Source of the DNA: Nitrospirae bacterium CG2_30_53_67
Lineage (GTDB): Bacteria; CG2-30-53-67
Assembly: GCA_001873285.1 (NCBI GenBank)
Contig: MNYV01000113.1
Coordinates: forward strand, 1 to 18,249
Direction: 5' to 3'
DNA: 18,249 nucleotides
The notes under the pieces are model-generated. The model searched no databases. It had not been told where the DNA came from and saw only the letters and a list, made by a program, of their open reading frames with translations. This document shows, in pieces, positions 15,850 to 15,994 of this stretch. The number at the start of each line of letters is the position of its first letter. Position 1 is the stretch's first letter. A program made the position numbers and the translations under genes.

Positions 15850-15994
15850 CATAGTTTAGGTTGTGCAGAGATCGCATCGGAAATCAGATAAATGTAAACC
15901 GCACAGACTTGTAAACCTGTGCGGTCTTTTTTGGTAAACGGTAGAAACTGCACATGGGTTTACTGTTTAATGCTTCAAAGACAAAGGAGAAAAC
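15850..15994 (+). promoter_or_regulatory. csp2 5' leader with conserved box and terminator-like hairpin
   Basis: The leader of about 145 nt carries AGGTTGTGCAG (15858-15868) and then a perfect 9-bp hairpin ACCGCACAG / CTGTGCGGT (15898-15925) followed by CTTTTTT. AAACTGCAC (CTGCAC 15948-15953) and the Shine-Dalgarno AAAGGAG come next. The hairpin plus T-run would act as an intrinsic terminator before the gene. The box can pair either with the hairpin's 5' arm (TGTGC with GCACA) or with CTGCAC. The csp1 leader shows the same elements in the same order. Regulation by attenuation or temperature is inferred. Confidence 0.75.

Follow-up and report, generated by a model that had tools for sequence, protein, structure and literature searches.

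The csp genes and their surroundings

The window, that is, the whole analysed stretch of 18,249 nucleotides, is contig C113 of a metagenome-assembled genome of 2.36 Mb. The genome encodes three stand-alone cold-shock proteins: csp1 and csp2 are located in the window and csp3 on contig C61. Both csp2 (15995-16195, forward strand) and csp1 (1849-2049, reverse strand, with its ATG at 2049) code for proteins of 66 amino acids, which score 107 and 102 bits, respectively, against the Pfam CSD model. The csp2 gene has a Shine-Dalgarno motif, AGGAG, read directly at 15985-15989, and an ordinary 3' terminator at 16220-16247, both on the forward strand.

Two consecutive genes for DEAD-box RNA helicases (12643-15782, forward strand) lie directly upstream of csp2, and the helicase pair together with csp2 likely represents a cold or RNA-remodelling cluster. 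An imperfect repeat, CCACGGATGAC.GACGACCGTATAGAA, was noticed by eye at 15508-15575, within the 3' end of the helicase gene preceding csp2. The neighbour of csp1 is a divergent gene (2226-2924, forward strand) encoding an S30AE ribosome hibernation factor with a C-terminal cold-shock domain fusion; the same arrangement of the S30AE-cold-shock-domain gene is found in the relative G001 (contig C126).

Architecture of the csp leaders

The predicted csp2 promoter (15815-15843, forward strand) consists of TTGACA (15815-15820), a spacer of 17 nt and an extended -10 element, TGG-TCTAAT (TCTAAT at 15838-15843), which places the predicted transcript start near 15850. Close to where the mRNA is predicted to begin lies box A, AGGTTGTGCAG (15858-15868). 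It is followed by the 5' arm (B, ACCGCACAG, 15898-15906) and the 3' arm (C, CTGTGCGGT, 15917-15925) of a terminator hairpin, with the tail CTTTTTT (15926-15932) 62 nt upstream of the ATG at 15995. The perfect 9-bp stem and T-run reported in the earlier note can be read directly from the sequence. Downstream of the T-run, box D (CTGCACA, 15948-15954) is able to pair with box A, a pairing that would enclose the terminator in the read-through RNA. Box A is thus complementary to two segments of its own leader, over 6 bp to the 5' arm of the hairpin and over 7 bp to the CTGCACA 3' of the T-run.

On the reverse strand, the csp1 leader comprises a predicted promoter (2236-2208; TTGACA at 2236-2231, a 17-nt spacer and TTAAAT at 2213-2208), box A (2193-2183), a terminator (2150-2123) with arms at 2150-2142 and 2131-2123 followed by a T-rich tail, and box D (CTGCACG, 2096-2090). 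The same parts were said earlier to occur here in the same order; the order is indeed identical, but the terminator stem has one A-G mismatch and is hence imperfect.

Conservation and distribution of the leader

The sample included eight genomes of the phylum, and the family counts six genomes. The leader is present in five of these six, in eight copies, each directly before a csp gene: the two copies of the window, two each in G001 and G003, and one each in G004 and G005; the covariance search found the leader absent from G002 of the same family. In the covariance model (R1) B:C alone was paired, so that other pairings were not favoured. At E ≤ 0.01, R1 gave exactly eight matches in the eight genomes of the phylum, all directly upstream of csp, and the conservation before csp genes of relatives on which the earlier claim hinged is present. 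As R1 was built from these eight leaders, their recovery is expected; informative are the absence of the leader elsewhere and the position of every copy before csp. Outside the phylum, the leader was absent from 378 genomes. The sole match there (G340, L074) is an unrelated, bare terminator with neither csp nor box nor D. A strict three-part pattern searched in 84,980 species matched before csp four times, always in the window's lineage; the remaining six of its ten matches have no csp downstream and were dismissed as chance.

Mean pairwise identity among the eight leaders amounts to 97% for box A, 87% for the 5' arm, 76% for the 3' arm and 83% for D. By comparison, the hairpin loop reaches 49%, and the four-fold sites of these csp genes 46%. 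Box A, B and D are therefore conserved far beyond four-fold sites. The GG.TGTGCAGA of box A is invariant in all eight leaders, as is the TTGACAT of the promoter (GACAT lies within the aligned part), with unchanged spacing. Altogether, an intrinsic terminator is conserved within the csp leader, as a unit with the gene, and the predicted promoter is conserved with it.

One could argue that the hairpin merely ends the upstream gene, which for csp2 is the DEAD-box helicase gene ending at 15782, or that it makes an independent small RNA, while csp itself relies on unregulated leakage or on a different promoter. In favour of this, the stretch from the helicase stop to the csp2 promoter yielded no hairpin terminator, and small RNAs derived from 5' UTRs do exist in E. 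coli (PMC7815308). Against this stands the divergent neighbour of csp1, owing to which the csp1 hairpin cannot be that neighbour's end terminator. Moreover, conservation before csp extends as one unit over box, hairpin, D and the downstream part, D is conserved although it lies 3' of the terminator, the promoter is conserved together with csp, and csp2 owns a 3' terminator of its own. We consider this explanation improbable.

Pairings within the leader

In the alignment of the eight leaders, B:C is paired in 91.7% of cells, and three of its pairs have changed in both arms. These changes come mostly from G003a, in which the arms were replaced jointly (CCGCCCG/CGGGTGG). Seven of eight leaders share the same 5' arm, CCGCACAG, and the mismatches seen in five leaders arise from the 3' arm. 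Such near-invariance of one arm, with mismatches confined to the other, hints at a second partner or role for the 5' arm, the numbers being small.

The best supported extra pairing is A:D, which leaves the terminator intact and encloses it. All 56 of 56 cells are paired across the eight leaders; five pairs are invariant and two have G-U variants. Both-side changes are absent in the window's leader type, and the support comes mostly from invariance plus G-U changes. In folds of the full leaders at 37 °C, A:D together with the terminator has a probability of 0.74-0.99 in seven of eight leaders and of 0.38 in csp2. The pairing of the box with the CTGCAC after the T-run, proposed in the earlier note, is real over 7 bp and conserved, but does not compete with the terminator.

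The functional part might in fact be A:D itself, as an mRNA-stabilising 5' stem, with the terminator as a secondary insertion. In E. coli, the UACAGA box is known as the cold box, and a stabilising effect on the mRNA has been proposed for its stem; in the predicted fold, UACAGA pairs with UCUGUA. Two csp3-type leaders (L002 and L037) lack the terminator yet keep a 5' stem (GUACAG/CUGUAC and UGUGCA/UGCGCA), and these orthologues differ by one double change from A-U to G-C. This covariation comprises two sequences only, whereas the terminator is conserved in eight of eight leaders, and we regard a stem with a secondarily inserted terminator as rather unlikely. Other 5' hairpins were seen in L035, L041 and L048.

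The remaining pairing, A:B, was the core of the earlier proposal, in which the box was to break the terminator by pairing with the GCACA of its 5' arm. The complementarity of 6 bp is real, and 95.8% of cells are paired. No both-side changes occur, however, and A:B is lost in G003a, which retains its terminator. In transcripts ending at the T-run, the terminator is dominant in folding between 10 and 37 °C (A:B ≤ 0.03), and A:B is near 0 at equilibrium once the 3' arm has been made. The terminator is the equilibrium winner in every sequence, and the on/off switch by alternative pairings that had been envisaged is only partly supported. Compared with shuffled leaders, the complementarities of csp2 taken by themselves are not significant, neither for the box and the 5' arm (p=0.29) nor for the box and CTGCACA (p=0.18). 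Antitermination by A:B is accordingly weak, while a role of A:B as a kinetic trap is possible from the modelling.

A kinetic cold switch, close to the idea of the earlier note, would work as follows: box A pairs with the nascent 5' arm, in the cold the 3' arm is too slow to displace it and polymerase reads through into csp, and in the warm the terminator forms. Nascent transcripts ending just past B do show A:B at a probability of at least 0.83 between 10 and 60 °C in five of the seven leaders able to form it, and the nearly invariant 5' arm, with mismatches in the 3' arm, fits such a role. The corresponding probability is 0.43-0.76 for csp2 over the same range of temperatures, and in G001a A:B is minor in the nascent transcript. 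Relative to B:C, the A:B state costs only about 1-10 kcal/mol, and the barrier is estimated to be higher at lower temperature; these barriers are rough path estimates that leave out the polymerase. The loss of A:B in G003a and its minor share in G001a speak against the kinetic switch, as does the finding that, in the csp1 and csp2 leaders, the fraction of the 5' arm engaged in upstream pairing does not significantly exceed that in shuffles.

Leader terminators in other lineages

Regions upstream of csp were surveyed in many bacterial families, and 26 of the 196 contain an intrinsic terminator at a distance of 25-80 nt from the ATG. The reverse strand yielded none and shuffled sequences 0-2, so that the combination of hairpin and T-run is well beyond chance. 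Eight of the 26 belong to the window's lineage. Another two (L008 and L183) look like end terminators of upstream tandem csp genes and were rejected as leaders.

In the Desulfurobacteriaceae, the family of G017, a leader terminator was recognised by eye at the 23 csp loci retrieved from 19 csp-bearing genomes. Their box, GAAGGCAG, shares its sequence with the 5' arm and complements the 3' arm, and in the sister leaders L160 and L161 box and 3' arm seem to co-vary while the 5' arm is unchanged (both by eye). The loop and inner stem of the conserved terminator, TGCCGTTTCT, are invariant in L146-L168 of this family, GGAAAC often occurs upstream, and GAAGGCAG and GGAAAC could pair with CTGCCTTC and GTTTC. 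Most of the 15 csp genes in three genomes of the G031 family are preceded by a leader terminator as well. In the leaders L131-L145 of this family, the box, AGAGTAARRCTCTT, forms a small hairpin, the 3' half of which pairs with the 5' arm of the terminator. A common type in three further families (L082, L200 and L248) combines the box AAGTTTTTGTAA with a hairpin containing CAAAGACTT. The leader of L245 also has a terminator-like hairpin; at 209-496 this locus matches the Rfam cspA family (RF01766), largely through the csp coding sequence.

Of 24 leader terminators, 8 show box-hairpin complementarity at p<0.05, compared with none of 38 ordinary 3' terminators of csp genes. A combined test with one leader per lineage, related leaders not being independent, gave only p=0.04. 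The sequences of the lineages differ, and common descent is thus not shown. What we observe is that leader terminators recur before csp in several unrelated lineages; csp genes alone were surveyed, and the result is one of recurrence, not of csp specificity. This suggests that cells may commonly control csp genes by whether transcription passes the leader. A broader generalisation, in which attenuators evolved repeatedly across many phyla, a 5' box imitates one terminator arm, and Csp or cold decides between termination and read-through, seems to us on the doubtful side.

These lineages also bear on the kinetic cold switch. The longer helix between box and 5' arm in G031-type leaders is in line with it, whereas the box of the Desulfurobacteriaceae, thermophiles included, pairs with the 3' arm instead. 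On the whole, we judge a purely kinetic switch unlikely.

A proposed model for the control of csp1 and csp2

From comparison of the sequences, we think that the csp1 and csp2 leaders are probably transcription attenuators with a cold-box-like stem. The computed support for this consists of the conservation of promoter, terminator, box and D, the occurrence of this leader before csp only, and the presence of leader terminators before csp in other lineages. In such an attenuator, RNA polymerase would start at the conserved predicted promoter and yield a leader of about 145 nt. At the B:C hairpin and U-run, it would either stop and release a short leader RNA (roughly 80 nt) or continue into csp. 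In the read-through RNA, box A and D would form a stem near the mRNA 5' end, with the hairpin enclosed. Read-through would most likely be set either by Csp protein acting on the nascent leader, i.e., by feedback, or by a transient A:B pairing formed before C is made and displaced slowly in the cold.

Feedback by Csp could take two forms: the protein would bind the leader and melt the hairpin (positive), or it would cover the box so that the terminator forms (negative). By analogy this is possible, if tentative, as Csps act at intrinsic terminators in both E. coli and B. subtilis. CspA, CspC and CspE of E. coli lower intrinsic termination, and overproduction of CspD does likewise in vivo (PMC9765468). 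In B. subtilis, CspB and CspD support termination at several sites (PMC8307031), so that Csp control of the attenuator could have either sign. That leader terminators are found time and again before csp genes fits this reading, and one recurrent box type, AAGTTTTTGTAA, is U-rich. The box in the window is not U-rich, however, and the survey, which covered csp genes, shows recurrence rather than specificity.

Accounts of csp regulation in E. coli centre mostly on the promoter, on mRNA stability and on translation. To these, a conserved leader terminator would add a checkpoint at the level of transcription, at just the kind of site on which Csp proteins are known to work. The old idea of Csp as an antiterminator, and of cspA autoregulation, becomes directly testable with defined targets, some of them in Desulfurobacterium thermolithotrophum, which is in culture. 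Of all results, we find the repeated occurrence of terminators in csp leaders the most interesting, and it reaches further than the initial observation.

Comparison with known systems

A search of Rfam, at gathering score and up to E=10, returned no credible family for the window's leader. No match to RF01766 at gathering score exists in the window, and none among leader matches up to E=10. Best local alignments of the E. coli cspA leader with window-type leaders gave p=0.078-0.86, and R1 found nothing significant on the E. coli leader. Homology to the E. coli cspA leader was consequently rejected, similarity being not significant, and the earlier statement that the layout is unlike that of E. 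coli cspA stands. In the open-licence literature, no account of intrinsic terminators within csp leaders came up; older subscription papers may hold one.

Both the E. coli cspA leader (the thermoregulator RF01766) and the window's leaders are long csp leaders with an extended -10 promoter and with predicted folds in which a 5'-proximal GUxCAGA box can pair further downstream. As in the E. coli cold-box stem, box A is 5'-proximal and pairs with its downstream partner D, in 100% of cells. The E. coli element differs in that it is described as acting on translation (PMC9947658).

The Rho-dependent termination of E. coli cspB and cspG resembles the window's leaders in being a premature stop before or within csp genes. 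Fusions of both genes are more than 2-fold higher in rhoR66S, consistent with Rho termination in the UTR or ORF (PMC7815308). There the stop is Rho-dependent and not localised to either UTR or ORF, whereas the leaders in the window use an intrinsic terminator.

With attenuators of the trp type and of the B. subtilis rplJL type, the window's leaders share the succession of promoter, competing segments, intrinsic terminator and structural gene. They differ from both in having no identified leader peptide or ligand, and in that the pairing competing with the terminator is weak.

A similar layout is found in the csp leaders of other lineages, in which promoter, box, intrinsic terminator and csp also follow one another and the box likewise resembles one arm of the hairpin. 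Their sequences are different, and the box pairs with the 3' arm in the Desulfurobacteriaceae and with the 5' arm in leaders of the G031 and L082 types.
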